Shown here: positions 8,296 through 43,305 of the stretch, piece after piece
Layout: each line of letters starts with the position of its first letter
Position numbering within the stretch: the first letter of the stretch is position 1
Assembly (NCBI GenBank): GCA_947448865.1
Contig: CANFOW010000011.1
Location: forward strand, 1 to 48,164
Length of the DNA stretch: 48,164 nt
Reading direction: 5' to 3'
From: Actinomycetota bacterium
GTDB lineage: Bacteria; Actinomycetota; Actinomycetes; S36-B12; UBA5976
Notes under the pieces: generated by a model
Told to the model about the DNA's origin: nothing
Databases searched by the model: none
The model's input: the letters and a program-made list of their open reading frames with translations, nothing else
Program-made: the position numbers and the translations under genes

Positions 8296-8301
8296 TAGGC
8301 T
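8296..8301 (+). promoter_or_regulatory. Predicted leaderless -10 element for the ribokinase gene
   Basis: TAGGCT is followed by exactly six bases and then the GTG start at 8308, and there is no Shine-Dalgarno sequence. Transcription would begin on the start codon. Confidence 0.55.
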
Positions 8302-8307
8302 TGCAGA

Positions 8308-9150
8308 GTGAGCCCACATATTGCAGTTGTTGGAAGTATAAACGCAGATCTTTTTGTACGCATGCCTCGCTTGCCAGGACGAGGTGAGACGGTAGCGGGC
8401 GGTGAACCTGAATGGTTTCCTGGTGGCAAAGGTGCAAATCAAGCCGTTGCTGCTGCGCGTCTCGGGGCTCGCGTGTCAATGCACGGCGCTGTGGGTAATG
8501 ACGCTCCAGGCGAAATGGTGTTACAAAATCTGGCAGCAGCACACGTTGATCTCACTCATGTGCGCAAAGTTGAAATTCCGACAAGTGTTGCGTTAGTGCT
8601 CGTCGAAGAAACGGGCGAAAACCAAATCGTTATTGCGCGCGGCGCTAATGATATGGTGCACGTTGATGATCAAGCGTTTGAACACATTGATGCTGTCATT
8701 ATTCAGCATGAAATTCCCGAGGCAGCATTACTTCAAGTTGCCGCAGCTTGTTCGTCTTTGTTGTGCCTCAATGGTGCGCCCGTTCGCGAGATTCCAGACG
8801 AACTGCGCAACCGCGTTGATGTACTCATTGTTAATGAGCACGAATTTGAATCCTACGGTCGACCTACACGTGGAGTTGTTGTTGTAACCGCTGGAGCAGG
8901 TGAGGCAGTTGCTTACCAAGATGGTGTCGCTATTGCACGTGCAACACCGCCACGAGTAAACGCAGTTGACACAGTTGGGGCAGGCGACACATTCGTTGGT
9001 GCATTTGTTGTTGCCCTTACATCTGGTCTCGATGTTCAGAGCTCATTGACCCGCGCAGTATTCGCGGCGTCATTGTCGACATTGTCACATGGCGCACAGT
9101 CAGGAATGCCAACAGCACAAGAAGTGGATGAATTTTTAGGCGTACAGTAA
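8308..9150 (+). CDS. rbsK: Ribokinase-like PfkB-family sugar kinase
   Basis: The 280-residue protein has the PfkB signature near the N-terminus (GGKGANQAVAAARLG, about 39-53) and the ATP-site signature DTVGAGDTFVGAF near the C-terminus, with Asp227 as catalytic base. The N-terminal IAVVGSINADLFVRMPRLPGRGET and the NQ pairing of the GGKGANQ motif are closest to ribokinases, which phosphorylate ribose at O5. A nucleoside hydrolase gene lies downstream at 9775, so ribose released from nucleosides is a sensible substrate. The enzyme is somewhat shorter than the usual 300 or more residues, and the sugar specificity is inferred from motif and context. It starts with GTG just after the Rieske gene. 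Confidence 0.82.
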   Translation: MSPHIAVVGSINADLFVRMPRLPGRGETVAGGEPEWFPGGKGANQAVAAARLGARVSMHGAVGNDAPGEMVLQNLAAAHVDLTHVRKVEIPTSVALVLVEETGENQIVIARGANDMVHVDDQAFEHIDAVIIQHEIPEAALLQVAAACSSLLCLNGAPVREIPDELRNRVDVLIVNEHEFESYGRPTRGVVVVTAGAGEAVAYQDGVAIARATPPRVNAVDTVGAGDTFVGAFVVALTSGLDVQSSLTRAVFAASLSTLSHGAQSGMPTAQEVDEFLGVQ

Positions 9151-9174
9151 AAGTGACAAAAGGTTGCTGACTGT

Positions 9175-9771
9175 ATGACTAAGAATTCTTCTTCCAAAAT
9201 ATTTCTTGCACTATCCGTAATGGGTTTGCTCGTTCTCACAGCGTGCTCGTTGAACACTGTAGCCACGCCTACCGCATCCGTTCCCGTATCGTCTGTGCCG
9301 ACTGTGACGCCGACTTCACCGGCACCAACACCTAGTGAGTCGGTTCAGTGTGCGAGCACGAATCTCACATTTACCTGGGGACAAGAGCAAGGCGCAGCTG
9401 GGACTGTGTATCGCACACTTGTGGCAACAAATAGCGGAACCGCTCCCTGTGTGCTGACGACAGCACCAACAGTTACCTTGTTTACACAATTCGCTAATTC
9501 GCCAGCAACGGTTGTCAATACTGTTGCGGTTCCGTCTGGTCTCGATCTTGGTTTACCTGTGACTCTGGCTGCCGGTGCGGCGCTAGATTTACCAATCGGA
9601 ACATCAAGCCCGGATAACTATTCGGATAAGGACTGCAAGAAGGCGATTGCTAATCATGTGGCGATTAGGATGATTCAAGATCCCACATCAGTGGAATTGC
9701 GCGTTGCTTCGTGGCCTGCTTGCACGACAGCAAATGCTGCACCATTTTTCTCGGCTTTCACCCTGGAGTAA
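9175..9771 (+). CDS. Lipoprotein with a DUF4232-like domain
   Basis: The 198-residue protein has a lipoprotein signal with lipobox L21-T-A-C24, then a Ser/Thr/Pro-rich linker (about 30-55) typical of surface-anchored actinobacterial lipoproteins. The rest contains LTFTWGQEQGAAGTVYRTLVATN and a following SGTAPC segment, the pattern I associate with DUF4232 domains (Gly-Ala-Ala-Gly then a beta sandwich with paired cysteines). Its function is unknown. It lies between ribokinase and nucleoside hydrolase with only three bases to the latter, so it is probably co-transcribed, but it does not look like a sugar-binding protein. AAAAGG lies about eleven bases upstream of the ATG. Confidence 0.75.
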   Translation: MTKNSSSKIFLALSVMGLLVLTACSLNTVATPTASVPVSSVPTVTPTSPAPTPSESVQCASTNLTFTWGQEQGAAGTVYRTLVATNSGTAPCVLTTAPTVTLFTQFANSPATVVNTVAVPSGLDLGLPVTLAAGAALDLPIGTSSPDNYSDKDCKKAIANHVAIRMIQDPTSVELRVASWPACTTANAAPFFSAFTLE

Positions 9772-9774
9772 CTC

Positions 9775-10725
9775 ATGCCAATCTCGCTGCTAATTGATAC
9801 TGACCCTGGTCTTGATGATGCAATTGCGATTGCGCTGGCGTTAGGAAGCCCCGAAGTAGATGTCATCGGCATTTCCACGGTGGGTGGCAACACTAATTTG
9901 GCCAACACGACGCGTAACGCTCTTCGTTTGTTGGAGTTTTTAAATCGCACTGACATTCCAGTGGCTTCTGGACATGATGAACCCTATGCACGGGCCAAGC
10001 AGGAAACGGGAAATCCACCAGTTCACGGAACTGACGGTTTCGCTAGCGTTGATCTCCCGGAACCTTCCACACAGGTCGTGTCAACAGATGCTCCTGCATT
10101 CCTTGCGCAAAAGATTAGGGAAGCAAAAGATCCTGTGACGTTAGTGGCGATTGGTCCACTAACAAACATCGCACATCTCGTTGACCGATTCCCAGAAGTA
10201 TTGCCGTTGGTAGATCGGTTCATCATCATGGGTGGAGCGGCTCAAACAGGAAATGTGACGCCAGTAGCTGAGTTCAATATTTGGCATGATCCAGAAGCAG
10301 CCAAAGTTGTTTTCAACAGTGCGTTGAAAACTGTGATGGTGGGACTTGACGTCACACATTCTGTAAAGACGTACGAAACAGAGTGGGAATGGATGAATGC
10401 TTTCGGAAAATTTGGTGAAGTGTTCGTCCAGATGATGACGTATTACACAGATTTTTATTCTCAGTTTTATGGCGAGCGAATGACTCATCAGCATGACGCA
10501 CTTGCGATGGCTGAAGCTATTTGGCCAGGAATCATGGTTTTGCAGGAAACCACAATTGACGTGGAAACTAAAGGCGAACTGACGGACGGCATGACTGTTG
10601 TTGATCAACGCGACCGCAAAGGTCGTGGCCGCAACTCGTGGGTTGCTTGGGAGATTGATGGAAATGAGTTCCATGCACGTCTTGGACAGGCACTTCGTCG
10701 TCTTGCTGCGCCGTTTGAGTCTTAA
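9775..10725 (+). CDS. Inosine-uridine preferring nucleoside hydrolase family protein
   Basis: The 316-residue protein begins with the calcium-binding DTDPGLDDAIAIALA motif (Asp8, Asp10, Asp14, Asp15), the mark of nucleoside N-ribohydrolases. It has the expected VAIGPLTNIAHLV segment, a MGGAA loop, an EFNIWHDPEAA segment, and a late HQHDALAMA motif with the conserved His-Asp. These enzymes split ribonucleosides to a base and ribose in the cytoplasm. With the ribokinase-like gene two positions upstream it would complete a nucleoside salvage step, base plus ribose-5-phosphate. The substrate range cannot be read from the sequence. Its ATG lies three bases after the lipoprotein stop. Confidence 0.9.
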   Translation: MPISLLIDTDPGLDDAIAIALALGSPEVDVIGISTVGGNTNLANTTRNALRLLEFLNRTDIPVASGHDEPYARAKQETGNPPVHGTDGFASVDLPEPSTQVVSTDAPAFLAQKIREAKDPVTLVAIGPLTNIAHLVDRFPEVLPLVDRFIIMGGAAQTGNVTPVAEFNIWHDPEAAKVVFNSALKTVMVGLDVTHSVKTYETEWEWMNAFGKFGEVFVQMMTYYTDFYSQFYGERMTHQHDALAMAEAIWPGIMVLQETTIDVETKGELTDGMTVVDQRDRKGRGRNSWVAWEIDGNEFHARLGQALRRLAAPFES

Positions 10726-10750
10726 CATTTCCTGAACCTAGGAAAGTGTT
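10724..10750 (+). terminator. Weak hairpin after the nucleoside hydrolase gene
   Basis: AACATTTCC and GGAAAGTGTT pair with one wobble and one bulged A around an eight-base loop, starting at the stop codon. GTTTG follows. A terminator is possible, but the T-tract is poor. Confidence 0.35.
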
Positions 10751-10759
10751 GTTTGCTAA

Positions 10760-10779
10760 CACAACGTGAATAGGTTGTG
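10760..10779 (+). promoter_or_regulatory. Inverted repeat overlapping a candidate -10 element
   Basis: CACAAC and GTTGTG form a perfect six-base inverted repeat spaced by eight bases. TAGGTT at 10771-10776 could be a -10 element, with a start near 10783 and a 40-base leader carrying the GGAGGAG site of the next gene. An operator role is inferred from placement only. Confidence 0.35.
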
Positions 10780-10822
10780 AATGTGGGTAGCCAAGCGGGG
10801 GACCCAAGGAGGAGCAAACACA

Positions 10823-11368: not shown

Positions 11369-11383
11369 TTCACTGAACTAAAA

Positions 11384-11415: not shown

Positions 11416-11425
11416 CAAGTTAGAA

Positions 11426-12004
11426 CTACTGAGCGCGGTTGCGTCCTGGTTCCCACAGGACGTCGCCGCGTTCTTTATTTGCAACACGAGCAAGAATAAA
11501 CAACAGGTCGCTTAGTCGATTCAAATACGTGGCAGCTAGAACATTCACGCCACCGTGATACATGTCGATGGCTGCCCATGTGCTGCGCTCTGCGCGACGA
11601 GCGACAGTGCGTGCGACATGAAGATGCGCAGCTCCGATAGTGCCGCCAGGCAGGATAAACGAACGAAGGGCTTCGACCTCTTCGTTGAAAGTATCGCAAG
11701 CATTTTCAAGGCGCTCGACATATTCATTTGTTACGCGAAGTGGTTCGTGAACAGGATTGTCTACAACGGGCGTACATAGGTCAGCGCCAACGTCGAAAAG
11801 ATCATTCTGAATACCGATCAATAGTTCAACAATGTCTTGCCGAATGTTTCCGGCTGCAATCGCTAAACCAATGGATGAATTAGCTTCATCCACATCGGCA
11901 TAGGCCTTGAGTCTCGGGTCATTTTTACCAGTGCGGCTCATGTCACCAAGGCTGGTCGTGCCGTCATCACCAGTTCGCGTGTAAATACGCGTCAAATTCA
12001 CCAT
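11426..12004 (-). CDS. pduO: ATP:cob(I)alamin adenosyltransferase, PduO type
   Basis: The enzyme transfers the adenosyl group of ATP to reduced cobalamin, making coenzyme B12 for mutases such as methylmalonyl-CoA mutase. The 192-residue protein has the PduO-type N-terminal motif [14 protein letters not shown] (8-21, ATP binding), DLFDVGADL in the second helix, FILPGG, and the C-terminal RTVARRAER helix with conserved arginines. Length is normal for the family. A methylmalonyl-CoA epimerase gene at 19673 fits a B12-dependent propionate route. A TAGTCT element six bases from the ATG predicts a leaderless message. A perfect 14-bp terminator lies just beyond its stop. It is divergent from murA. 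Confidence 0.93.
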
Positions 12005-12010: not shown

Positions 12011-12016
12011 AGACTA
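12011..12016 (-). promoter_or_regulatory. Predicted leaderless -10 element for pduO
   Basis: Read on the minus strand, TAGTCT is followed by six bases (TAGACC) and the ATG. No ribosome-binding site is present, so the transcript should start on the start codon. Confidence 0.6.
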
Positions 12017-12073: not shown

Positions 12074-13351
12074 ATGGAAATCTTTCGGGTCACCGGTGGT
12101 GCACGTCTCGTAGGAGAAGTGCGGGTTTCAGGCGCGAAAAATAGCAGCTTAAAACTTATGGCTGTGGCACTTTTGGCAGTCGGTGAATCAACGATTCACA
12201 ATGTGCCGAACATCCTGGACGTGACGATTATGGCTCAGTTGTTGAGGCGACTTGGCTGCACGGTCGAATACTCACCCGAGACCGAAACCGTTGTGATTGA
12301 CGTTCCCGAGACTATCGAGCATCGTGCTGACTATGACTTGGTACGACGTATGCGTGCCTCCATTGCAGTGCTGGGCCCACTCATCGCCCGAACTGGTGCT
12401 GCTGATGTCGCATTACCCGGTGGCGACAACATAGGGTCGCGTGGTCTCGACATGCACATCGCAGGTTTGGAGCGCATGGGAGCCATAGTCACGAGCGAAC
12501 ACGGCTACCTCGTTGTCCAAGCACCGAGTACAGGCTTGGTGGGCACACATGTCTATTTAGATTTCCCAAGTGTTGGCGCAACTGAGACGTTGTTGATGGC
12601 CGCAGTAAACGCTCATGGAACAACTGTGATTGACAATGTGGCACGCGAGCCAGAGATTGTGGACATCTGTTCCATGCTTGTTGCCATGGGAGCACAGATT
12701 GAAGGCATTGGTTCTCCGATGCTGACCATCACGGGCGTTGATTCGTTGCATCCAGTTGAGTACACAACTGTCCCAGATCGAATTGTTGCAGGCACGTGGG
12801 CAGTTGCTGCCACGATGACTCAAGGTGACATTGTCGTGCGTAATGCGCGTGCTGAGCATTTAACTTTGCCGTTGGAGAAACTGTCGACAGCGGGCGCGGT
12901 AATAGAAACATTGGATGATGGCATTCGCATCACAATGGATCGTCGGCCACATGCGGTTGATGTGGTGACGTTGCCGTACCCAGGATTCCCGACAGATTTG
13001 CAACCACAGTTCATTGCGATGAATTCAATTGCAACAGGTTCGGCGTTAGTAACGGAAAATTTATTTGAAGCGCGGTTCCGCTTTGTTCAGGAACTCAGCC
13101 GACTCGGAGCAGAAGTCCGGACTGACGGGCATCACGCACTAGTTCGCGGAAAGTCACAATTATCCGGCGCACCAGTTGAGAGTACTGACATCCGCGCAGG
13201 CGCAGGATTAGTTCTGGCCGCACTTGTTGCCGAAGGCGAATCAACGGTTCATGGCGTAGAACACATTGATCGTGGATATGTGGGTTTTGAATCGCTGCTT
13301 GCTCAGCTTGGAGCCGACATTAAGCGCGAGACGCTCGAGGACCTCGGCTAA
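12074..13351 (+). CDS. murA: UDP-N-acetylglucosamine 1-carboxyvinyltransferase (MurA), Asp-type
   Basis: MurA transfers enolpyruvate from PEP to UDP-GlcNAc, the first committed step of peptidoglycan synthesis. The 425-residue protein has the substrate-site Lys-Asn in [10 protein letters not shown], the conserved [10 protein letters not shown] segment, and the late [13 protein letters not shown] motif. The active-site loop reads [15 protein letters not shown]. The usual cysteine (Cys115 in E. coli) is replaced by Asp118, as in Mycobacterium tuberculosis and Chlamydia MurA, where this change is known to prevent fosfomycin alkylation. I chose ATG 12074 because the family N-terminus starts near MEIFRVTGG. 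In-frame TTG (12038) and GTG (12047) codons upstream add non-conserved residues. The last 32 bases overlap the tail of the convergent gene at 13320. Confidence 0.94.
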
Positions 13352-13661
13352 GGATTTCTCGGGCTTTTGATTCGTCTGCAGGAAAGACCATCACTCGAGG
13401 ACCGTCGTTAGTTTGAGCGAGGTTTGCTCGAATTCCGTTGTCTTCTAGGGACTTGCGCAGAATTTCACCGTCAATGTAATTGCTCGGTGCTGCAACGGGA
13501 ACGAGCAACCCATACTGGTCGGGATTTCCCATCTGTGCTGGTTTAGCAACGACAGACCCGCCTCGAGAAAACGCCCAACGCAGGACCAGGATCATGACCC
13601 CTAGTCCAAAAAATGCAACGAGTGGTCCAAAGGCATAAGAAAAAGCACTCCAGGATGGCAC
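13320..13661 (-). CDS. Small membrane protein with a DUF2007-like cytoplasmic domain
   Basis: The 113-residue product has one N-terminal transmembrane helix (about 8-28), a short basic linker, and a C-terminal alpha/beta domain (about 52-105). The pattern of that domain, an acidic position before [11 protein letters not shown], then a [15 protein letters not shown] end, resembles the DUF2007 putative signal-transducing domain. The function is unknown and the domain match is by eye. It starts with GTG. A TAACGT element exactly six bases upstream suggests a leaderless transcript. Its 3' end overlaps the end of murA by 32 bases on the opposite strand. Confidence 0.7.
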
Positions 13662-13667: not shown

Positions 13668-13673
13668 ACGTTA
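13668..13673 (-). promoter_or_regulatory. Predicted leaderless -10 element for the gene at 13320-13661
   Basis: On the minus strand TAACGT is followed by TTTTTC and the GTG start, the same six-base spacing seen at other genes here. Confidence 0.5.
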
Positions 13674-15311: not shown

Positions 15312-15983
15312 CTAGAACAAGCGAAGACCAGGCTCATCAATTCCGCGAAGCGCATCGTAGTCCACGACAACGCACTCGATGCCGCGGTCTTCGGCAAGTG
15401 TGCGAGCTTGTGGCTTAATTTCTTGGGCGGCATAGATTCCACGCACTGGTGCAATGAGTGGATCACGATTGAGAAGATCAAGGTAGCGCGTGAGTTGCTC
15501 AACACCATCAATCTCGCCGCGCCGTTTGATCTCGATTGCGATTGTGCGTCCATTGGCATCTCGGCACACGATATCGACTGGACCAATGGGAGTAGGAAAT
15601 TCCCGACGTACCAAAGTTAAGTCAGGACCGAAGGTATCTAAATGAATTGCAAGCAGCTCTTGCAGATGTGCTTCAACTCCGTCTTTAACTAGACCTGGAT
15701 CAATACCTAGGTCATGGGAAGAATCATGGTGGACCTCATGCAACGTGATGATGAGTTGTTCGCCGGCCTTATTGACTACCGTCCAAATGTGTGTGTCATC
15801 GTCATGCGACTCCGTCAATGTACAAGGCGGACTCATCCAATTGAGGGGTTTGTACGCTCGGTCATCAGCATGAATCGACACCGAACCATCGGACTTTACG
15901 AGCAGCAGGCGAGTTGCCTGTGGTAAGTGCGCGCTCAGGCGTCCGGCGTAATCCACGGAACACGTGGCAATAACTAAGCGCAT
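15312..15983 (-). CDS. nucS: Endonuclease NucS/EndoMS, non-canonical mismatch repair
   Basis: NucS is the mismatch-specific endonuclease that replaces MutS-MutL in most actinobacteria and many archaea, cutting both strands at mispairs. The 223-residue protein has an N-terminal DNA-binding and dimerisation part and a C-terminal nuclease domain. The catalytic pattern is complete: Asp137 in GPVDIVCRD, Glu151 and Lys153 in [10 protein letters not shown], and Gln163 in GVEQLTRYL. The last residues, EPGLRLF, match the short C-terminal sliding-clamp contact described for actinobacterial NucS. A TATCGT element lies six bases before the ATG. It is divergent from the 3-hydroxyacyl-CoA dehydrogenase gene. 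Confidence 0.95.
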
Positions 15984-15989
15984 TACCCA

Positions 15990-15995
15990 ACGATA
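15990..15995 (-). promoter_or_regulatory. Predicted leaderless -10 element for nucS
   Basis: Read on the minus strand, TATCGT is followed by TGGGTA and ATG. No Shine-Dalgarno sequence is present. Confidence 0.55.
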
Positions 15996-16027
15996 GAGCC
16001 CCGCAATTGTGCTGACACACTAGGGGA

Positions 16028-17089
16028 ATGGAGAAGATTGGTGTTGTTGGCCTAGGCATTATGGGCGCTGGAATTGTTGAAGTTTTCGCCAAGTCCGGCT
16101 ACTCGGTCGTTGGTGTGGCGGAAAGCGATGCAGCTGTGTCACTTGGGCAAAGCAACCTCGCAAAGTCACTGAGTCGTGCTGTGTCACGTGGCAAGTTAAC
16201 TGATGAAGAGTCGTCTGGCATCACCTCATTAGTGACATGGGGAACTGACTTCTCGCTCATGTCGGATTGCGATCTCGTTGTTGAAGCAGCTCCGGAAATT
16301 ATGTCGCTGAAAGCGAAAATTTTTAGTGAGCTAGATAGTTGTGTTAAGTCGAGTGCCATTTTGGCTACGAACACCTCATCACTTTCTGTTACTTCCATTG
16401 CAGAAGTAACTTCCCGTCGTTCGCACGTCATCGGGTTGCATTTCTTCAACCCTGCACCAGTGCAAAAATTTGTTGAGGTTATCTCCACTGAGTTTTCTGA
16501 TTCAGATGTTGTTAAAAAAGTAGTTGACCTTGCTCGTGGATTAGGAAAAGAACCTGCCCAGATTGCGGATCAGCCGGGTTTTATCGTCAATAAACTCCTG
16601 CTTCGCTATTTGAATCATGCGGTGCGATTAATTGATGACGGAATTTCTACCCGTGACATTATTGATAGCGCAATGCGTGAAATCGCGCATTTCCCGATGG
16701 GGCCGCTCGAACTACTTGACCTCATTGGCCTAGACACGTCGGTCGAAGTTCTTAACACAATTTATGATGACACCGGTATAGATACTGATGGGCCAGCATC
16801 TGGTTTAACAGCACGCGTAAATATTGGTGAACTCGGGCGTAAGAGTGGCGAAGGTTTTTACACCTACGCCCAACCTCATGAACCTGCAACTTCGCAGGAC
16901 GACGAAGGCAAGCAACGGGTTTATGTCGAATTGATAAATGCCTACTTGGCGAGCGCATGCGAAATGCGCGACAGCGGCTACGCCACCGAACATGACATTA
17001 ACCAGGGAATGAAGCTTGGGTGTGGGTTACCTGAAGGACCATTCGAGACAATTGCTCGCGTTGGTTCTGACCAGTTGCCACTAAATTAG
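16028..17089 (+). CDS. 3-hydroxyacyl-CoA (3-hydroxybutyryl-CoA) dehydrogenase
   Basis: This NAD(P)-dependent enzyme interconverts 3-hydroxyacyl-CoA and 3-oxoacyl-CoA. The 353-residue protein has the Rossmann motif GLGIMGAGI (8-16), ATNTSSLSVT, and the catalytic dyad His138 (in GLHFFNPAP) and Glu150, spaced by 12 as in the mammalian enzyme. The C-terminal domain starts near residue 185 (PGFIVNKLLLRYLNHA). A second partial C-terminal repeat (about 295-340) makes it longer than the usual 285 residues, as in several actinobacterial members. Thiolase (20171), enoyl-CoA hydratase (29499) and etfBA lie nearby. Whether its main role is fatty-acid breakdown or butyryl-CoA metabolism is not visible. 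CACACT six bases upstream of ATG is a weak leaderless promoter candidate. Confidence 0.92.
   Translation: MEKIGVVGLGIMGAGIVEVFAKSGYSVVGVAESDAAVSLGQSNLAKSLSRAVSRGKLTDEESSGITSLVTWGTDFSLMSDCDLVVEAAPEIMSLKAKIFSELDSCVKSSAILATNTSSLSVTSIAEVTSRRSHVIGLHFFNPAPVQKFVEVISTEFSDSDVVKKVVDLARGLGKEPAQIADQPGFIVNKLLLRYLNHAVRLIDDGISTRDIIDSAMREIAHFPMGPLELLDLIGLDTSVEVLNTIYDDTGIDTDGPASGLTARVNIGELGRKSGEGFYTYAQPHEPATSQDDEGKQRVYVELINAYLASACEMRDSGYATEHDINQGMKLGCGLPEGPFETIARVGSDQLPLN
17082..17087 (+). promoter_or_regulatory. Predicted leaderless -10 element for the gene at 17094
   Basis: TAAATT overlaps the 3' end of the upstream gene and is followed by six bases and ATG. The next gene may therefore have its own start although it lies four bases after the previous stop. 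Confidence 0.45.
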
Positions 17090-17093: not shown

Positions 17094-17390
17094 ATGGCAC
17101 GCCGTAACCGTCGAGAACCGACCCCAGAACCAGGTGAATTCAAGCTGGGTGGCTTTCGCAAAATCGAGACTCACCCCGATGGCGATTGGGCTGTCACGCG
17201 GGTAACTGGTTCAGCGGCGACTAAGGCGTATCGATGCCCTGGATGTGACATGGAGATTAAGCCTGCGACCCCACACGTTGTGGCGTGGCCCTACTACGGC
17301 GATGACATTGAGTCATCACTTCCAGATCGTCGCCACTGGCATACGACGTGTTGGGCTAACCGACTCAATAGAAGGCCGCGGACGCGCTAA
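17094..17390 (+). CDS. Small zinc-ribbon-like protein conserved in actinobacteria
   Basis: The 98-residue product is basic at both ends and has a CPGCDMEI motif (49-52 CxxC region) followed 30 residues later by HWHTTCW. Together these supply Cys and His ligands for one zinc site, resembling a truncated treble-clef or HNH-type fold without an obvious nuclease motif. Similar short proteins are often annotated as ATP/GTP-binding proteins in actinobacteria without experimental support. It overlaps the start of the first alpha/beta hydrolase by one base (TAATG), so the two are probably made together. The function is unknown. Confidence 0.75.
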   Translation: MARRNRREPTPEPGEFKLGGFRKIETHPDGDWAVTRVTGSAATKAYRCPGCDMEIKPATPHVVAWPYYGDDIESSLPDRRHWHTTCWANRLNRRPRTR

Positions 17391-19672: not shown

Positions 19673-20107
19673 TTATGCGACGGGTTCAACTAACTCCACG
19701 AGTAGGCCGCCCATGTCGCTGGGATGGATAAAGTTTATCCGAGAACCACCTGTGCCTACACGGGGTTGCTCATAAATAAGACGCATTCCTGCGGCGGTCA
19801 CTTTGTCCATTGCGACAGTGATATCAGTGACGAGAAATGCCATTTGTTGCACGCCTTCACCATTTTTGGCGAGGAACCGGCCAATTGTGGTGTCCTGCGC
19901 CAGCGGAGCGAGCAACTGGATAAAACTGCCCCCGGGCACCGAAACCATGGCTTCATCAACGCCTTGTTCGACATTTGTCTCTCGGTGACTCAGTGTCAGA
20001 CCGAGTGATTCCCACATTGAAATGTCGTGGTCAATATCACGCACAGCTAGGCCAATGTGATCGAAACCAAGCAAGGTCTCGCCTAGGACTTCACGCAACG
20101 CTGTCAT
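19673..20107 (-). CDS. mce: Methylmalonyl-CoA epimerase
   Basis: This VOC-fold metalloenzyme interconverts the (S) and (R) forms of methylmalonyl-CoA, feeding the B12-dependent mutase. The 144-residue protein has [10 protein letters not shown] with ligand His17, a NVEQGV segment with the likely catalytic Glu47, FIQLLAP with Gln64, and the last ligand Glu139 in [10 protein letters not shown]. The motif usually written GxGxHHxA reads GEGVQQMA here, so the third metal ligand position holds a glutamine. I recall the same pair in other actinobacterial homologues. TACTGT lies six bases before the ATG. Cobalamin adenosyltransferase lies in the same window. Confidence 0.9.
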
Positions 20108-20113: not shown

Positions 20114-20119
20114 ACAGTA
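20114..20119 (-). promoter_or_regulatory. Predicted leaderless -10 element for the epimerase gene
   Basis: On the minus strand TACTGT is followed by CACACT and ATG, with no ribosome-binding site. Confidence 0.55.
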
Positions 20120-21371: not shown

Positions 21372-22139
21372 CTAGGCAACAGGTGCAGTGCGAAGTGAGA
21401 TTGCATGGTCGATGGCAGATTGGCCACGCAAACTTTCCACTTCGATCGCTGCGCCACCACCGTTGACACCAAAAAGATGTTTGGTCCACAGCAGCCACAG
21501 CACGGCAAGAATGTTGAGAACAAACGCACCAATTTTGAATAATGTAACGGTGTGCATCAGTTCGTAAATTTCATAGGGAATAAACGCACTTGTTGCGACA
21601 ACAGTCAGATATTCGGCCCAGCGCATTTGGTACCACAGTCCGATGCCTTCAGTCAGTTGCACACAACCGTAAGCCACCAGTCCAATAGCAATCAAAACTA
21701 ATGTGTGTGGCGTGGTCTCAACAATCACATTCAAAAGGTGAATGAATTTAGATTGGTTGATGTTCCAGCCGATTTGGTCAGCAAAGGGTTTGAGCAACGG
21801 GATTGATGTTGTCAATCGGTCCTGTAGTGAGTCCTGTGATCCTTGCAACTGATAGACAACAATTCCAAGCACGAGCACGATCAGCCCGCGAATGAATCGT
21901 TCGACAGCAAGAAATCGGATGATGACGCGGTCACGGATTTGATGGTCATGCAGGATTTCGGGGGCTTCACTTGCTGGTCCATGGGCAAACGGTTCACCGG
22001 GAACAAATACCCCGCAACGTAGGCATTTCCAGGCGGTTCCGACGGGTGTTGATACGCGGATTTGCTGCGCCAAATGATCTTCAGCAGGTGAAAAAGTTAC
22101 GTGTCCAGTGCGAGCGCAGGCTCGAGTACTCCAGTCCAT
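21372..22139 (-). CDS. DUF2127-like membrane protein with N-terminal zinc-ribbon motif
   Basis: The 255-residue product has a soluble N-terminal segment with Cys8, His13 and WKCLRCGVFVPG (a CxxC near residue 39), which could form a small zinc site. Several transmembrane helices follow (about 76-96, 146-165, 176-195, 200-220) with the late LTEGIGLWYQMRWAEYLTVVATSAFIPYE region. That region, with its Gly-Leu-Trp and Arg-Trp-Ala-Glu pattern, is what I associate with DUF2127. The function is unknown. It starts back-to-back with the thioredoxin/TPR gene, and only 33 bases lie between the two start codons. Confidence 0.75.
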   Translation of the reverse strand: MDWSTRACARTGHVTFSPAEDHLAQQIRVSTPVGTAWKCLRCGVFVPGEPFAHGPASEAPEILHDHQIRDRVIIRFLAVERFIRGLIVLVLGIVVYQLQGSQDSLQDRLTTSIPLLKPFADQIGWNINQSKFIHLLNVIVETTPHTLVLIAIGLVAYGCVQLTEGIGLWYQMRWAEYLTVVATSAFIPYEIYELMHTVTLFKIGAFVLNILAVLWLLWTKHLFGVNGGGAAIEVESLRGQSAIDHAISLRTAPVA

Positions 22140-22146: not shown

Positions 22147-22152
22147 AGTCTA
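22147..22152 (-). promoter_or_regulatory. Candidate -10 element for the DUF2127-like gene
   Basis: TAGACT on the minus strand lies seven bases before the ATG. It is packed against the plus-strand element at 22161 in the same 33-base gap. Confidence 0.45.
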
Positions 22153-22160: not shown

Positions 22161-22166
22161 CAGAAT
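22161..22166 (+). promoter_or_regulatory. Candidate leaderless -10 element for the thioredoxin/TPR gene
   Basis: CAGAAT is followed by six bases and the GTG at 22173. This spacing supports that GTG as the true start. Confidence 0.45.
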
Positions 22167-22172: not shown

Positions 22173-23069
22173 GTGTCACAGATGAATTTACAAGGAGCGA
22201 TTGACCTCGGCGCATTAGCTAAGGCTCGCGAGGTTCAACAACAACGAGCCCAAAATCCGAAAGTGGATTACGTACTTGATGTAGTAACAGCCAACTTTGA
22301 AGTTGATGTTTTGCAACGCTCGCTGACTGTCCCTGTTGTGGTGCAATTGTGGTCGCCTCGTAGCGCAAAGTGCAACGCGCTCACTCCTGTACTTGAGAAA
22401 GTTGCGCTGGAATTCCAGGGAAAATTTATTTTGGCTCGCGTTAATGTTGACACTGATCCACAAATCGCCCAGGCATTTCAAGCCCAGACCGTACCCATGG
22501 TGTTCGCGTTTGTTGCATCGCAGCCACTTGGACTTTTCCAAGACGTCATCACGGATGTCCAATTTCGCGCGGTTGTTAATCAGGTACTTGAAGCAGCAAA
22601 TGCAGCCGGATTGGTCGCAGAAACTTCTGAAGAAAACGACACACCTCGTGAACCTGAAGATCCAAGCGATCCACGCTTTGATGCCGCCGAGGCTGCTTTA
22701 GAACTCGGTGATTGGGATACCGCGATTTCTGAATACAAAAATATTCTGAAAGCCACACCGAACGATGCCATAGCAAAAATTGCCGTACTCAATGTTGAGT
22801 TGATGAAGCGCACAGACGGCATGGACTTCGACGTAGTTCTCGCAAGCACGCAAACGGATCTTGACACCCAATTAGCGATGGCTGATGCACTGTTCATTCT
22901 GAATGATTATGAAACTGCGTTTGCACAATTAATTAACCTCATTCGGGAAACAGGCGGCGAAGAACGAAATCTCGTGCGTGAACGGTTGCTCAACTTCTTT
23001 GAGATTGTGGGTCCAGCTGATCCTGCAGTTGTTAAAGGTCGAGTCGCATTGAGTAACGCACTGTATTAG
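22173..23069 (+). CDS. Thioredoxin-fold/TPR co-chaperone of the CnoX (YbbN) type
   Basis: The 298-residue protein joins a thioredoxin-like domain (about 32-145) to an acidic linker and a C-terminal TPR-like helical region (about 165-290, with RFDAAEAALELGDWDTAISEYK as first repeat). The active-site stretch reads WSPRSAKCNAL. The first catalytic cysteine is replaced by Ser64 and only Cys67 remains, so it is not a dithiol reductase. E. coli CnoX has the same SxxC type and acts as a holdase protecting proteins from over-oxidation before handing them to chaperones. I chose GTG 22173 because of the promoter spacing; ATG 22182 is an alternative. Confidence 0.85.
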   Translation: MSQMNLQGAIDLGALAKAREVQQQRAQNPKVDYVLDVVTANFEVDVLQRSLTVPVVVQLWSPRSAKCNALTPVLEKVALEFQGKFILARVNVDTDPQIAQAFQAQTVPMVFAFVASQPLGLFQDVITDVQFRAVVNQVLEAANAAGLVAETSEENDTPREPEDPSDPRFDAAEAALELGDWDTAISEYKNILKATPNDAIAKIAVLNVELMKRTDGMDFDVVLASTQTDLDTQLAMADALFILNDYETAFAQLINLIRETGGEERNLVRERLLNFFEIVGPADPAVVKGRVALSNALY

Positions 23070-23145: not shown

Positions 23146-25278
23146 CCAAATCGTGGCAAGTGGTGGCAGGGTGAGTTGTGTCCACGCTGGCATTCCATGT
23201 GAATCGCCAGAATGTGCAATGACACTTCCGAAGTTTCCTTGACCTGAACCGCCAAATTCTTGCGCATCAGTATTCAAAACCTCAGTCCATGTTCCAGGCT
23301 GTGGCATTCCTATTTGGTAATTTTCACGCACAACAGGCGAAAAGTTTGTGACGGATACCAATGCATGTCCTTGATGGTCATAGCGCGCCCAGGCGAACAC
23401 GTTGCCTTCTGCATCACCACCCACAATCCATTGGAATCCAGCTGGATCGTTATCGCGTTCCCACAGTGCATTCGTGTTTTGGTAGACCTCATTCAGCGCT
23501 TTCACGCTGCGAGCTACGCCGTGATGACCTGGTTGATCAAGAATCCACCAATCCAGTCCATGAGTCTCGGACCATTCTGCAGGCTGGGCGAATTCGCTTC
23601 CCATAAAAATAAGTTTCTTTCCTGGATGTGCCCACATGTATGCCAAGTAGGCACGTAAGTTCGCAAGCTTCTGCCACGTATCGCCTGGCATTCTTCCAAG
23701 GAGCGAACCCTTGCCATGCACAACTTCATCGTGGCTAATGGGCAAAACATAGTTTTCGCTCCATGCGTACATCAACGGGAAAGTCATTTCATTGTGGTGA
23801 TACTTGCGATGAACCGGCTCATGTTTGACGTAGGACAACGTGTCGTGCATCCAACCCATGTTCCACTTCATTCCGAAACCGAGGCCATTTTCGCTCGTTG
23901 GTTTTGAGACACCTGGCCACGCCGTTGATTCTTCGGCGATGGTCATCACTCCAGGAACTCGGCCATACACAGTGGCATTCATTTCTTGAAGAAACTTCAC
24001 TGCGTCTAAGTTTTCACGACCACCAAATTCATTCGGGAGCCACTGGCCGTCTTCGCGGGAGTAATCCAAATACAACATCGAAGCCACAGCATCAACGCGT
24101 AAGCCATCAATGTGAAACTCCTCGAGCATGTACAGCGCATTCGCAACAAGGAAATTGCGAACCTCGCGACGGCCGAAGTCAAAAACTAATGTTCCCCAAT
24201 CTGGATGTTCGCCGCGTCGCGGATCTGCATGTTCATAGAGAGGCGACCCATCAAACTGAGCAAGTGCCCATTCGTCTTTAGGGAAGTGCGCAGGAACCCA
24301 ATCCACAATCACGCCAATACCGGCTTGATGAAACGCATCGATGAGAAAACGAAATTCATCTGGATTGCCGAACCGCGATGTGGGTGCGTAGTACGAGGTG
24401 ACTTGATATCCCCATGATGGTGAATAGGGATGTTCTGCAATAGGCATGAGCTCAACATGGGTGAATCCGTGTTCAACAACGTAGGCCACAAGCTCGTGTG
24501 CTAGCTCGTTATATGTCTTCTCTTGGCGCCACGACCCAAGATGCACTTCATAGGTGGACATCGCACGATTATGTTGGTCGCGTTCTGCACGTTGCGTCAT
24601 CCAGGCGTCATCACGCCACTGGTAGGTCGAGTCAAAAACTATCGATGCAGTCTCGGGTGGCACTTGCGTGGCAAATGCCATCGGATCTGCTTTACTTCGC
24701 CATTGACCATCTCGACCTAAAATACTGAACTTGTATTTAGTTCCCGCGGCAATAAGCGGTACGAATAGTTCCCATACGCCACTGCTACCCATAGAGCGCA
24801 TGGGATGCCCAATGCCATCCCAATGATTGAAGTCACCTATGACACGAATACCTTGTGCGTTCGGTGCCCACACGGCAAATGAAATACCTGACACACCATC
24901 CATTGTGCGCACATGAGTACCAAGCACCGTCCACAACTTTTCGTGACGACCTTCGCCAATCAGATACAGATCCGTTTCGCCAAGCGTTGGCAAGAACCGG
25001 TAAGCATCATCAGCCGGAATTGCGCCCGTCCCATAGTCGACGTTTAAGGAGTACGTTGCGTCATTAGCCGAGGGAAGTTCAACGACCCACACACCACGAT
25101 GCTCGTGGGTTGTCGGGTAGACAACGCCGTCGATTACAACATCAACGCTGGTCGCCCATGGACGCAAAATGCGCACCGTCGTTGTTGCACCATCTGTGTG
25201 TGCGCCAAGGACACCATGCGGGTTGTGATGCCAACCATCAACAATCCGGTCAAGCTCGCTGGTGTCAATGTGGATCAT
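23131..25278 (-). CDS. glgB: 1,4-alpha-glucan branching enzyme
   Basis: GlgB makes alpha-1,6 branches in glycogen-like glucan. The 715-residue GH13 protein has an N-terminal beta-sandwich, a CBM48 domain (about 120-215) and the TIM barrel. Catalytic residues are Asp396 (GLRVDAVAS), Glu449 (IAEEST) and Asp517 ([12 protein letters not shown]), with the same spacing as E. coli Asp405, Glu458 and Asp526. The end carries the usual C-terminal beta domain. Its ATG shares one base with the glgE stop (TAATG), so translation is coupled. The 3' end lies inside a 17-bp tandem repeat. Confidence 0.97.
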
Positions 25279-27269: not shown

Positions 27270-27275
27270 ACCGTA
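27270..27275 (-). promoter_or_regulatory. Predicted leaderless -10 element for glgE
   Basis: On the minus strand TACGGT is followed by TGAACC and GTG. A TTGAACC sequence is repeated 14 bases upstream of that spacer copy. Confidence 0.45.
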
Positions 27276-29486: not shown

Positions 29487-29492
29487 TAATCT
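29487..29492 (+). promoter_or_regulatory. Predicted leaderless -10 element for the enoyl-CoA hydratase gene
   Basis: TAATCT is followed by TGTCAG and the GTG start at 29499. Confidence 0.55.
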
Positions 29493-29498: not shown

Positions 29499-30272
29499 GT
29501 GAGTAACTTTTTGCACTTAGAGCGACATGGCTTGGTTCTTGTGGTCACACTTGATCGCCCAAAAATGAATGTCCTGTCTCGCGAGATGCAAAATGACCTC
29601 GCTGATGTGGCTCGTGATGTTGCAACGGATGACAGTGTGCGTGCGGTTGTGTTTTATGGCGGTGAACGTAACTTTGCCGCTGGCGCTGATGTAAAAGAAA
29701 TGGTGCATTGGGATAGCGACATCGCTCATCGTGAATCACCGGATTTACAATCAGCGTTTAACGCGGTGGCTTCAATTCCACAGCCGACCATTGCCGCCAT
29801 CACTGGGTACGCACTTGGTGGAGGACTCGAGCTTGCAATGAGTTGCGACTTACGTGTAACTGCAGACAATGCCACGTTGGGCCAGCCGGAAATTTTGCTT
29901 GGGATCATTCCTGGCGCAGGTGGCACGCAGCGCCTGACTCGACTCGTTGGTGTGTCACGCGCTAAAGATTTGATTATGACTGGCCGATTTGTTACGGCTG
30001 CCGAAGCGGCTGTGATGGGTTTGGTTAATGAGGTCGTTGCACCCGAGCAGGTATTCACCCGTGCCGTGGAGTTAGCCTCGACGCTAGCCGCAGGTCCACG
30101 CCTTGCACTGGCTGCAGCTAAACGGGCAATTGACCGCGGAATTGAAGTGCCTCTGAGTCAAGGCTTGGAAATCGAGACCGCTGAGTTTGCCGGTCTATTT
30201 GGAAGTGTGGACCAACAAACCGGAATGACGTCATTCGTGGAAAATGGGCCTGGAAAAGCCGTATTCGAGTAA
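29499..30272 (+). CDS. Enoyl-CoA hydratase
   Basis: Crotonase-fold enzyme that adds water to trans-2-enoyl-CoA. The 257-residue protein has an oxyanion-hole segment FAAGADVKEM (59-68) and GYALGGGLELAMSCD, with both catalytic glutamates at 111 and 131, spaced by 20 as in rat crotonase (144 and 164). The end, EGLEIET-like SQGLEIETAEFAGLF then GMTSFVENG, is typical for short-chain hydratases. It lies directly upstream of etfBA, and with the dehydrogenase (16028) and thiolase (20171) the window holds most of a beta-oxidation cycle. An acyl-CoA dehydrogenase is not in the window. The exact substrate is unknown. Confidence 0.93.
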   Translation: MSNFLHLERHGLVLVVTLDRPKMNVLSREMQNDLADVARDVATDDSVRAVVFYGGERNFAAGADVKEMVHWDSDIAHRESPDLQSAFNAVASIPQPTIAAITGYALGGGLELAMSCDLRVTADNATLGQPEILLGIIPGAGGTQRLTRLVGVSRAKDLIMTGRFVTAAEAAVMGLVNEVVAPEQVFTRAVELASTLAAGPRLALAAAKRAIDRGIEVPLSQGLEIETAEFAGLFGSVDQQTGMTSFVENGPGKAVFE

Positions 30273-37551: not shown

Positions 37552-37557
37552 TAGAAT
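37552..37557 (+). promoter_or_regulatory. Predicted leaderless -10 element for gatC
   Basis: TAGAAT is followed by TGGGCC and ATG, exactly six bases. There is no good ribosome-binding site in the 21-base gap after ligA. Confidence 0.6.
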
Positions 37558-37563: not shown

Positions 37564-37860
37564 ATGGCTGCAATCTCACGCGATGATGTCGCGCATCTAG
37601 CGCGATTAGCGCGGATCGATATCCCCGAATCTGAACTTGACCACTATGCCTCGCAACTTGATGCAATCTTGGAGGCTGTTGACAAGGTTTCTGGTTTAGA
37701 CACCAGCGGCGTCGAGCCGATGAGTCACCCGGTCAAAATGGAAAACGTTTTTCGTGAGGACATTCCAGCACCCTCGCTTAATGCGCAGCAGGCACTTGCT
37801 GGAGCTCCGGCCGTCGAGGATAGCCGCTTCCGTGTGCCACGAATTTTGGATGAGGAATAG
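37564..37860 (+). CDS. gatC: Asp-tRNA(Asn)/Glu-tRNA(Gln) amidotransferase subunit C
   Basis: GatC is the small subunit that wraps between GatA and GatB in the transamidosome, which converts Glu-tRNA(Gln) and Asp-tRNA(Asn) to the amidated forms. The 98-residue protein has the family start [19 protein letters not shown], the [15 protein letters not shown] segment, and the C-terminal [10 protein letters not shown]. gatA begins two bases after its stop. Confidence 0.95.
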
Positions 37861-39356: not shown

Positions 39357-40870
39357 TGGCTGAACCAGTGATTGCTTTTGATCAAGCACTCAAGGAATTT
39401 GATCCAGTACTTGGACTTGAAGTTCACGTAGAACTTGGCACACGCACCAAGATGTTTTGTGGCTGCAGCACCGAATTCGGTGGCGAGCCCAATACGCATG
39501 TGTGTCCAGTGTGTTTAGGACTTCCTGGCTCACTTCCTGCGTTAAACCGCATTGGTGTCGAGTCTGCGATCCGTATCGGTCTTGCATTGAACTGCGAGAT
39601 TGCAACGTGGTGTCGATTTGCGCGAAAGAATTACTTCTATCCCGACATGCCTAAGAATTTTCAAACTTCTCAATATGATGAGCCGATTTGTTTCAATGGC
39701 TATCTTGATGTTGATGTTGACACCGATGAAGGTCGTAAGACATTCCGCGTCGAAATTGAACGTGCACACATGGAAGAAGACACGGGCAAGAACACGCACA
39801 TGGGTGGAGCAACAGGCCGCATTCATGGTGCTGACTACTCACTCGTTGATTACAACCGTGCAGGAATCCCGCTGATTGAAATTGTGACAAAACCAATTAC
39901 GGGCACTGGTAAGTATGCTCCCGAAGTTGCTAAAGCCTATGTGGCTGCATTACGCGATATTTTGCGTGGCCTCGGAGTTTCTGATGTGAAGATGGAACAA
40001 GGCTCACTTCGCTGTGACGTCAATCTGTCGCTACGTCCATCGCCAGAACATGAACTGGGTACTCGTTCAGAAACCAAGAATGTGAACTCGTTACGTTCAG
40101 TTGAACGATCAGTGCGCTACGAAGTAACACGCCAAGCTGCACGCTTGCTTGCTGGCCAGCGTGTTGTACAAGAAACTCGTCACTGGCACGAAGACACCGG
40201 CGTAACAACCTCAGGCCGTTCTAAAGAGCAAGCCGAGGATTATCGCTATTTCCCCGAGCCTGACTTAATTCCGATTGCTCCATCCCGCGAGTGGGTAGAA
40301 GAACTTCGTTCAACACTTCCTGAAAATCCAGCTGTGCGTCGAGCTCGCTTAACCAAGACCTGGAACATTTCCGAGTTGGAAATGGAAAATCTGATTAACG
40401 CAGGTGTTCTGGAATTGGTGGAGTCTGCAGTGAATGCAGGCATGAGTCCTGATGCTGCACGCAAGTGGTACACGGGCGAACTCGCTCGGGTGGCAAATGA
40501 ACGTGGTGTCGAAGTTGAAGAACTCGGCGTCACACATGTTGAACTCGCTCGAATTGAAGCATTGATTGCCACTGGTGCTTTGAATGACAAACTTGCTCGC
40601 CAAGTACTCGAAGGCGTCATTGCTCGTGAAGGTGATGTTGATTCGATTATTGCCAGCCGCGGCTTGGCTGTTGTGTCCGACGATGGACCATTACTCGAAG
40701 CGATTGTCGCTGCATTGGCCGCTGATCCTGAGGTAGCCGAGAAGATTGCCTCCGGCAAAGTTCAGGCCGCTGGTTCAGTTGTGGGTGCGGTTATGAAAGC
40801 TACACGTGGACAGGCTGATGCTGCGCGAGTTCGTGAATTGTTATTCGCGCACTTAGGCGTTAGCGAATAA
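39356..40870 (+). CDS. gatB: Asp-tRNA(Asn)/Glu-tRNA(Gln) amidotransferase subunit B
   Basis: GatB is the kinase and tRNA-binding subunit that activates the acyl group. The 504-residue protein has the N-terminal [20 protein letters not shown], the [15 protein letters not shown] zinc segment, [16 protein letters not shown], the [11 protein letters not shown] region, and a C-terminal YqeY-like tail that ends [18 protein letters not shown] 39356 is chosen over the upstream ATG at 39317 because it matches the family start and overlaps the gatA stop by one base. The last 11 bases overlap the convergent amidase gene. Confidence 0.97.
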
Positions 40871-42323
40871 AAGTTGGGCGAAGTACGCCTAAGTCAAGAA
40901 TCTTTTCAATTCGACTCATGGCTCGCACAAGTCCGTTTTCATCATGAGCCCGAGCAACGACGCCAAGTCCCACGGGTAAACCGCTGACGATTCCCATAGG
41001 TAAACAACCAATTGGCCATCCTGCAATTGCCGAAGGTGCAGTGATCCAACTTGATGATGAATGATCTTCACCGTGTCCGAGAGTTGACAGCCACGCCGGA
41101 GCATATGTTGCTCCTATGAGTACGTCAACATCGTGAAGTCCAGGCCCTAGCACTTTCGTTAAAGCCCATTCAAGATTGCGAGCTCGCGCTGCTCGGTAAA
41201 CCTCATTGCGTCCGCCCGAGGCAGCTGACTGTTCAAAAAATTCTTGACCAAAATGTGCCAGCTCAACGTCGCTATGTTCCTTATTAAATGCAACAACGTC
41301 TGCTACGGACTTCACTCCATGTCCAGGACGATTCGCTAGGTATGCAGAAAGATCTTCCATTTGCTCGTGTACTAGGACAGTTGTTTCGTCCATGCCTTCA
41401 GCATCGGTGGCATCGGCGACTCGAACATCAGTCAGAGTGATGCCATGACGAGCCAAGAGCGACACCGTATCGTGAAAGAGAGTGTTCGTTGCATCGTCGC
41501 TCGTAAGCCATTGGCCCACGACGCCAATTCGCAACGTGCTGTCATCATCAAGCCAGGATTGAGTATCAAGGCCACCGAGAACATCTAAGAGTAAAGCTGC
41601 GTCCGCAACACTTCGTGCCAGTGGACCGGGTGCATCTTGACTCGCGCTAATGGGAATGACGCCACTTGTCGACACAACACCGACTGTCGGCTTAATGCCA
41701 ACGCATCCATTCAACGATGCGGGACACACGATTGAACCGTCAGTTTCTGAGCCAACTGCAAATGGGACTAGACCAGCTGCAACTGCGGCGCCACTTCCCG
41801 AGGACGAACCGCCAGCGCTGTGTGCGTACTTCCAAGGATTCGCTGTGAGTCCGCCGACTGCTGACCAACCGCTTGTGGATTCGCTCGAGCGAAAATTGGC
41901 CCACTCGGACAAGTTGGTGCTGGCCATCACAACTGCGCCGGCAGCACGAAGTCGAGACACTAATGCAGCATCCTGAGTAACTGTGCGACCAGCAAGCGCT
42001 AGTGATCCTGCGGTTGCAGGTAAGCCGATAGCTTGGATGTTGTCTTTAATAGCTACGGGAAGACCCGCTAAAACATTACGACCGGATTGTGTGTCGGAGT
42101 CACTCTCGTCACTGAATTGTTGGATCTTGGCCTGATCAAAAACATCAACGCTAATTGCCAAGATGGATTGCAGTCCACCTTCGCTGTCATCAACATTGCT
42201 GATCCGTTCAATAAACGAAGCAGTCAAATCGTGGCTCGAAATGTCTTGGGCCCGTAACTCCTGAATCAGGTCTTGAGCACTCGTGAATCCGAGGTCAGCC
42301 GATTCGGGATGGGGGTCAGTCAT
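40860..42323 (-). CDS. Amidase-signature enzyme, not GatA
   Basis: The 487-residue protein has the amidase catalytic set: a lysine in [14 protein letters not shown], the [16 protein letters not shown] signature, and the nucleophile serine in [14 protein letters not shown]. It differs from GatA in ETDGSI (GatA has DTGGSI) and in its C-terminal half, and resembles stand-alone bacterial amidases that hydrolyse amides or peptide amides. The substrate is unknown. I take ATG 42323; the longer frame start at 42362 would overlap the divergent gene. AACGAT seven bases upstream is a possible -10 element. It is convergent with gatB, overlapping by 11 bases. Confidence 0.87.
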
Positions 42324-42348
42324 ACCGTTTATCGTTCCACATTGGTAG

Positions 42349-42354
42349 CACAAT
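42349..42354 (+). promoter_or_regulatory. Candidate leaderless -10 element for the 2-hydroxyacid dehydrogenase gene
   Basis: CACAAT is followed by AGGTAC and the ATG at 42361. The match to TANNNT is imperfect at the first base. Confidence 0.4.
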
Positions 42355-42360
42355 AGGTAC

Positions 42361-43287
42361 ATGACTCAGCAGAATTTGTCGCGCACAATTGTCACTCCTC
42401 AGTGGGTGGCAGACGGTTATTCGTTCCCCGGGGACGTTCGGGTAGTTATCGGCGATGACTTAGCCGATGTAACTCGAGATGATTTAGCAACCGCGGACTA
42501 TGTCGTTCTGCCATACATGGGCTCCTCAATTTCTATTGCTGAAGCAATTGAGCGCATGACTAATGTGTCTGTTATTCAAACCTTGACTGCTGGATTCGAC
42601 AACGTCGTGCACCTCGTGCCGCAAAACGTCACGCTATGTAATGCGGCTGGTGTTCACGATGCGAGCACATCCGAGATGGCTGTTCTGCTGACTTTGAGTT
42701 CCTTGCGTGATATTCCGCAGTCAGTGCACGCGCAAGATCGAAGTGAGTGGGTGCACTATTTCAGCCGGTCATTAGCGACCAAGACGGTTCTACTCATCGG
42801 CTATGGCGGCGTTGGCAAAGCGACTGAAAAGCGCCTGTTGCCATTTGAATGCACTGTTATCCCAGTTGCTTCACGTGCGCGAGATCATGTGCATTCACTC
42901 GATGAACTCGACGTATTAATTCCGCAGGCTGACATTGTGATTCTGACTGTTCCACTGAACGAAGGCACCGCACGATTAGTTGACTCGACATTCATTGCTC
43001 GCATGAAGCCAGGTGCATTGCTGGTCAACGTTGCTCGAGGACCAGTTGTCGACACTGATGCACTTGTGACTGCCTTACATGAAGGTCGCATTCACGCCGC
43101 GCTTGATGTCACAGACCCTGAACCACTTCCGAGCGACCATCCCTTGTGGTCTGCCCCTAACACCCTGATAGCGCCACACCTCGGCGGCGATACCGATGTT
43201 TTCGAGCCACGGGCTCGCAAGCGCGTGCATGACCAGTGGGATCGCTGGCTCTCCGGAAGGCCACTGGACTGCATCATCGAGCACTAG
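42361..43287 (+). CDS. D-isomer-specific 2-hydroxyacid dehydrogenase family protein
   Basis: The 308-residue NAD-dependent protein has the central Rossmann motif GYGGVGKATEKR (about 149-160), the substrate-binding Arg in VNVARGPVVDTDAL, the acidic partner in DVTDPEPLPSDHPLW, and the catalytic His in IAPHLGGDT. These are all the catalytic features of the family (glycerate, glyoxylate, lactate or phosphoglycerate dehydrogenases). It lacks the long C-terminal regulatory domains of SerA, so it is not full-length phosphoglycerate dehydrogenase. The substrate cannot be read. It lies between amidase and ilvD, 18 bases before the latter. Confidence 0.87.
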   Translation: MTQQNLSRTIVTPQWVADGYSFPGDVRVVIGDDLADVTRDDLATADYVVLPYMGSSISIAEAIERMTNVSVIQTLTAGFDNVVHLVPQNVTLCNAAGVHDASTSEMAVLLTLSSLRDIPQSVHAQDRSEWVHYFSRSLATKTVLLIGYGGVGKATEKRLLPFECTVIPVASRARDHVHSLDELDVLIPQADIVILTVPLNEGTARLVDSTFIARMKPGALLVNVARGPVVDTDALVTALHEGRIHAALDVTDPEPLPSDHPLWSAPNTLIAPHLGGDTDVFEPRARKRVHDQWDRWLSGRPLDCIIEH

Positions 43288-43293
43288 CAGGGA

Positions 43294-43299
43294 TAGATT
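43294..43299 (+). promoter_or_regulatory. Predicted leaderless -10 element for ilvD
   Basis: TAGATT is followed by TAACCC and the ATG at 43306. No Shine-Dalgarno sequence is seen. Confidence 0.6.
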
Positions 43300-43305
43300 T
43301 AACCC

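Follow-up and report, generated by a model that had tools for sequence, protein, structure and literature searches.

Do the TANNNT hexamers that stand a few bases before many start codons on one contig of an Actinomycetota bacterium act as promoters from which the message begins directly on the start codon? This question is raised by contig 11 (CANFOW010000011.1, 51% GC), whose 48,164 nucleotides, all of which were analyzed, are called the window below. The genome to which it belongs comprises 1.75 Mb (1,748,746 bases) in 105 contigs and is 88% complete. Among the GatA matches listed, the closest came from MAGs labelled Actinomycetota or Candidatus Nanopelagicales (76-79% identity), so that the source is probably an actinobacterium belonging to that order or close to it; records of the own genome and of near relatives may have been excluded from this search. 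Leaderless initiation is common in actinobacteria and has been mapped mainly in well-studied genera. A first-pass annotation of the window had listed ten genes in which TANNNT is followed by exactly six bases and then ATG or GTG, and had proposed that this arrangement is not due to chance and that these messages begin on the start codon. Every hexamer, spacer and start codon of the ten sites was found as listed. Overall, we consider it very probable that the hexamers are housekeeping promoters of the sigma-A type that let transcription begin at the start codon and would thereby give leaderless mRNA.

A genome-wide count at offset six had been suggested as a check, and we ran it on 43% of the genome (the window plus 35 stretches of 20 kb; 748,164 of 1,748,746 bases), in which a home-made coding model that ignores upstream signals called 689 open reading frames (ORFs). 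The spacing was defined as the number of bases between the hexamer and the start codon, and the main count was made at the first ATG or GTG of each frame (n = 674 starts). TANNNT was observed 81 times at spacing six, 30 times at seven, 11 times at eight and 3 times at five, compared with a mean of 5.6 at the other spacings, which speaks strongly in favour of the rule. When any ATG or GTG up to 90 nt from the called start was accepted, making the count independent of start choice (n = 672), we obtained 84 sites at six and 51 at seven, compared with 11.4 for the control. The excess above control at six and seven together ranged from approximately 100 of 674 genes (first ATG/GTG) to 112 of 672 (any ATG/GTG), that is 15-17%, and about one gene in six or seven appears to possess a promoter box at one of these two distances from its start codon. 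The "exactly six" bases of the first-pass annotation agree with the peak at six, but this wording was too narrow, seven being a clear second peak. At deep internal in-frame ATG/GTG codons (n = 7435) no peak was observed, with 17 matches at six and 36 at seven, inside the range of 14-52. In 400 kb of G029, a relative in the same genus whose genome is 98% complete, TANNNT preceded 42 of 361 starts at six and 13 of 361 at seven, and 200 kb of E. coli K-12 analyzed with the same pipeline gave no peak (2/159 at six, 0/159 at seven). The claim that the window sites are not due to chance was also borne out, the probability of finding 10 such genes among 45 being P = 4e-9 at the control rate of 11.4/672 and 2e-9 at the 1/64 that had been assumed. 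The window was not significantly richer in the signal than the remainder of the sample (9/44 called window genes vs 80/645 elsewhere, P = 0.09).

The sequence context of the sites was equally specific. Among the candidate codons of the sample, the peak was present before ATG (57 at six and 31 at seven of 893 codons) and before GTG (30 and 20 of 809), and absent before TTG, CTG, ATT, ATC and ATA. Such a restriction would be expected from a purine start site located on the codon, or if leaderless translation requires ATG or GTG. A Shine-Dalgarno 4-mer was detected in 2 of the 89 spacing-six genes and 1 of the 52 spacing-seven genes (3/141), compared with 189 of the 531 other genes, and a pyrimidine occupied position -1 in 69/89 and 48/52 of these genes, respectively, compared with 331/531 of the others. 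Since at spacing seven the pyrimidine still stands directly before the codon, the position of the transcription start appears to be tied to the codon rather than set by a constant distance to the box. The nearly empty spacing five fits leaderless initiation as well, because the start would there tend to fall within the codon. In logos of 89 spacing-six and 53 spacing-seven sites, no position between -40 and -16 exceeded 0.11 bits, and no -35 signal was thus visible. The two positions before the box favoured C (0.44) then G (0.38) in the 89 spacing-six sites, less clearly in the 53 spacing-seven sites, and the middle of the hexamer was variable and G-rich, TAG.. being the commonest form. In the mechanism that we infer, the TANNNT -10 box would be the main recognition element, and RNA polymerase would initiate at the first base of the start codon, a purine (A or G) located seven or eight bases past it. 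The resulting mRNA would possess neither a 5' leader nor a Shine-Dalgarno site and would be translated in the leaderless mode, through recognition of a start codon lying at the 5' end. One short element would then determine where transcription begins as well as where reading begins, so that selection would hold the codon at a distance of six or seven bases.

Conservation of the sites was evaluated by searching, for each gene, 43 genomes of the same family, own genome included. At most 30 loci were kept per search, and the ortholog counts refer to the loci kept and not to all matches. Rows were excluded when the alignment started beyond residue 15 or the start lay too close to a contig end, and in the main ortholog table also for an identity below 42% or above 98.5%, short alignments or identical upstream sequences; only the first two exclusions were applied to glgE and to a wider gatC count. 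Among the loci kept, 16 of the 45 window genes had no ortholog row. The ten genes behaved unequally: eight sites are kept in most of the orthologs seen, but two are not. TANNNT at spacing six or seven was present in 14/14 orthologs of the rbsK-like PfkB kinase gene (8308-9150, PfkB Pfam match; TAGGCT at 8296-8301, plus strand, six bases before GTG 8308), in 36/36 orthologs of the gene for a pduO-type cobalamin adenosyltransferase (11426-12004, TIGR00636; TAGTCT at 12011-12016, minus strand, before ATG 12004) and in 26/26 orthologs of gatC (37564-37860, TIGR00135; TAGAAT at 37552-37557, plus strand, before ATG 37564). It was found in 27/29 orthologs of ilvD (43306-44994, TIGR00110; TAGATT at 43294-43299, plus strand, before ATG 43306) and in 19/21 of the enoyl-CoA hydratase gene echA (29499-30272, ECH_1; TAATCT at 29487-29492, plus strand, before GTG 29499). 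For glgE (25278-27263, GlgE_dom_N_S; TACGGT at 27270-27275, minus strand, before GTG 27263) the count was 11 of 13 loci, own copy included, and for the gene at 17094-17390 (TAAATT at 17082-17087, plus strand, before ATG 17094), which encodes a conserved 98-aa protein with no family match, it was 26/36. The eighth site, TATCGT at 15990-15995 on the minus strand, precedes ATG 15983 of nucS (15312-15983, NucS models). In these eight families, spacings five and eight were almost empty (one ilvD row at five, none at eight). One window gene absent from the list of the first-pass annotation, encoding a DUF2127 protein (21372-22139, minus strand), has spacing seven (TAGACT at 22147-22152, before ATG 22139), and of its 2 orthologs one presented TANNNT at six. 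Window genes without the signal mostly lacked it in their orthologs too (gatA 0/27, gatB 0/26, thiolase 0/22).

Conservation extended beyond the window. When the sample without the window was compared with 800 kb of G029, TANNNT at six or seven was found in both genomes for 30 of 222 ortholog pairs (22 of the 222 had no comparable start), versus 0-2 for six control spacing pairs. Outside the family, 80 actinobacterial gatC loci were fetched, and TANNNT at six or seven was present in 27 of 78 rows, the box occurring in the own family and in several Micrococcales and Nocardioides rows. In the 27 rows titled Streptomyces, TANNNT at six to eight was found in none. Most Streptomyces gatC starts (L003-L048) present a GAGGA-like (GAGGAT-type) element at the place of the TA box of other orders. 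Judging from these upstream sequences, gatC seems to be led in one of two ways depending on the clade. Taken together, the confinement of the peak to ATG and GTG starts, the scarcity of Shine-Dalgarno 4-mers, the pyrimidine at -1, the conservation of the sites and a published 5'-RACE of M. smegmatis nucS support the proposal that these messages would begin on the start codon.

Several results weigh against this reading, at least for single sites. As a bare pattern, TANNNT-N6-RTG was rarer than expected over the two strands of the window (20 observed vs 29.6 from shuffles), and genome-wide TANNNT-N6-ATG was rarer than a reversed control pattern (320 vs 428). Half of these 20 matches in the window coincide with the ten listed gene starts, and the enrichment is one of position at gene starts and not of the pattern itself. 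In 10 of the 141 signal genes, the TA of the hexamer belongs to the stop codon of the upstream gene, so that a few sites may be chance; with only 10/141 sites, upstream stop codons were rejected as the source of the TA. For nucS, TANNNT at six or seven was present in just 11/19 orthologs, CANNNT occurring in another 6. The gene for methylmalonyl-CoA epimerase (19673-20107, TIGR03081) possesses TACTGT at 20114-20119 on the minus strand, six bases before ATG 20107, a doubtful promoter that was retained in 0/22 orthologs, 17 of which carry a Shine-Dalgarno-like 4-mer. The own copy is devoid of the Shine-Dalgarno-like motif of most orthologs, and the site possibly represents a recent switch to leaderless expression, or chance. 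The gene at 13320-13661, which encodes a conserved 113-aa protein with no family match, has TAACGT at 13668-13673 (minus strand, before GTG 13661), and among its orthologs the TA form was seen at six or seven in 1 of 32. The orthologs of the gene for EPSP synthase (12074-13351) fall outside the rule, with TANNNT at eight before GTG/ATG in 24/35 and at six or seven in 11/35, the own copy possessing TAACCT at ten. A comparable G029 ortholog existed for 42 genes of the own sample with TANNNT at six or seven, and 12 of these orthologs had no TANNNT at those spacings. Finally, our simple gene model failed to call the gene at 17094.

Three weaker forms beginning with CA had also been listed in the first-pass annotation, and they raise the question of whether all sites belong to a single promoter type. 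CACACT (16016-16021, plus strand) stands before ATG 16028 of a 3-hydroxyacyl-CoA dehydrogenase gene (16028-17089, Pfam), CAGAAT (22161-22166, plus strand) before GTG 22173 of a thioredoxin/TPR protein gene (22173-23069, Pfam), and CACAAT (42349-42354, plus strand) before ATG 42361 of a 2-hydroxyacid dehydrogenase gene (42361-43287, Pfam). All three are present and conserved: CANNNT at six or seven was found in 14/16, 12/19 and 13/14 ortholog rows, respectively, and TANNNT in 0, 1 and 0 rows. The gene at 13661 joins them by its orthologs (CANNNT 21/32), as does the amidase gene (40860-42323, Pfam Amidase), preceded at spacing seven by the additional site AACGAT (42331-42336, minus strand, before ATG 42323) and showing CANNNT in 14/14 orthologs and TANNNT in none; for 13661 TANNNT was limited to the one row mentioned above. 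In light of these alignments, the CANNNT forms may be taken as real. The -12C sites could then be more than a weaker version of the same box and form a separate promoter class that requires an extended -10 G or uses an alternative sigma factor. Each of the five ortholog families retains its -12 letter, and a G two bases before the hexamer was present in 80 of 91 C-class rows versus 53 of 173 T-class rows (summed across families with 10 or more rows). However, ortholog rows are related and not independent, and counted by family the G was found in 5/5 C and 3/8 T families. The rows with a purine at -12, which may be Shine-Dalgarno motifs, were left out of this T/C count. The nucS orthologs alternate between T and C, which speaks for a single class, and in this genome neither 13661 nor 40860 has CANNNT. 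Beyond the window, one conserved C-C pair was observed in 222, without the G and within the control range of 0-3, and CANNNT at six showed a mild excess in the genome sample (37 vs 27, s.d. 7.6). A separate class for the -12C sites is on balance unlikely.

Compensation for the lost T by an extended -10 G was rejected: it looked strong in the window orthologs but was not repeated outside, where the single C-C pair lacked the G. One common mutation separates T from C, yet most genes remain in the same class throughout the family, and on that ground the -12C genes would be a distinct set. It is nevertheless rather doubtful that the leaderless genes of the family fall into two stable promoter classes that differ at position -12, one with TANNNT and the other with CANNNT and a G two bases before it, the latter distinct and perhaps co-regulated. 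Four of the five -12C window members (16028, 22173, 40860 and 42361) lie in divergent pairs whose starts are approximately 37 to 44 bases apart. In the divergent pairs 42323-42361 (starts 37 bases apart) and 15983-16028 (44), a -10-like box is visible for both genes, and in such short gaps two polymerases would hardly be able to bind simultaneously. Divergent pairs carrying the signal for both genes were no more frequent in the sample than expected (10/91 vs 11.6).

It could also be proposed that the hexamers are promoters but that the main transcripts are leadered and originate from promoters further upstream, the proximal box giving a minor or conditional leaderless transcript. Some listed genes closely follow a gene on the same strand in the ORF list, with gaps of 21 nt for gatC, 18 nt for ilvD and 4 nt for the gene at 17094, and the signal was present in 24 of 224 sample genes located at most 15 nt from an upstream same-strand gene, which makes read-through messages likely for such genes. 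In M. tuberculosis, according to the cited part of the mapping study, 47 genes possess an extra alternative start site and give transcripts with or without a leader (PMC3898074). By contrast, with a Shine-Dalgarno 4-mer in 3/141 signal genes, such leadered messages would have no visible ribosome site, and 65 of the 141 signal genes adjoin a divergent gene, which makes read-through from the upstream gene impossible for them. We consider the predominance of leadered transcripts improbable. As for chance matches picked by a reader free to choose the start codon, the lack of enrichment of the bare pattern and the epimerase site would fit them, but the start-choice-free count, the placement of most starts by homology, the conservation in relatives and the flat E. 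coli profile refute them for the set, single sites such as that of the epimerase excepted, and leave this explanation practically no credit.

Leaderless promoters on the start codon thus remain the reading that we retain, and the genes concerned presented further features. A nucS match, the gene encoding the mismatch-repair endonuclease NucS, was found in just 21 of the 43 family genomes and in 7 of the 23 of the genus (own included), and none in G025 and G029, whose genomes are 97-98% complete; a repeated loss of the NucS repair enzyme in the family is possible from this distribution. The two small proteins encoded at 17094-17390 and 13320-13661, without Pfam or NCBIfam match, were present in 41/43 and 37/43 family genomes, respectively (own included). 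In one relative, the ilvD match (G004:C9:12346-14007) contains five internal stops (4 TGA, 1 TAA), suggesting either a decayed copy or sequence errors.

The arrangement has counterparts in the literature, and the remark that leaderless mRNA is known in actinobacteria holds, the grammar being already in print (PMC3160421, PMC3898074). In the cited sections of Zheng et al. (2011), TA-led genes are described as having TANNNT about 12 bp before the start codon and as most probably leaderless, with a share of about 20% of genes in 86 of 89 actinobacterial genomes (PMC3160421). The same TANNNT position above chance and the same missing Shine-Dalgarno signal were found here, as well as a substantial fraction of genes (approximately 15-17% vs 20%). 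The medium-GC groups (40-60%) carry TAtaaT according to the same sections, whereas this 51%-GC genome retains a variable, G-rich middle (PMC3160421). For the mapped starts of M. tuberculosis, the cited part of Cortes et al. (2013) reports TANNNT, preceded at part of the sites by CGN or TGN, no -35 element, a purine start with a pyrimidine at -1, and the use of both ATG and GTG (PMC3898074). TANNNT, the lack of -35, the -1 pyrimidine and the ATG and GTG starts are shared with our sites, measured in that species and predicted here from sequence. The nucS gene of M. smegmatis is, in the excerpted results, leaderless by 5'-RACE, with its transcription start on the start codon and a TANNNT box (PMC12649562); the same gene and box were found here, with ATG in place of the GTG of that species. 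GeneMarkS-2 (Lomsadze et al., 2018, as cited in the part of PMC9581028 referred to here) locates starts from upstream patterns when a genome contains leaderless genes, which matches the remark of the first-pass annotation that the spacing helps to choose starts, the tool being general and not specific to this genome. Since the rule has already been published for actinobacteria, the present case is a correct and well-supported new instance and not a new kind. In literature on Nanopelagicales and freshwater actinobacteria, no report of leaderless genes for this lineage was found among the matches listed.

Overall, these results suggest that a lineage near Candidatus Nanopelagicales uses leaderless promoters for about one gene in 6-7, by sequence, with conservation in the family that can be followed site by site. 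They provide a practical start-calling rule for such genomes, namely a spacing of six or seven and ATG or GTG only. In addition, gatC, with the box in some clades and none in the Streptomyces rows, would be a clean case for studying switches between the two ways of leading a gene.

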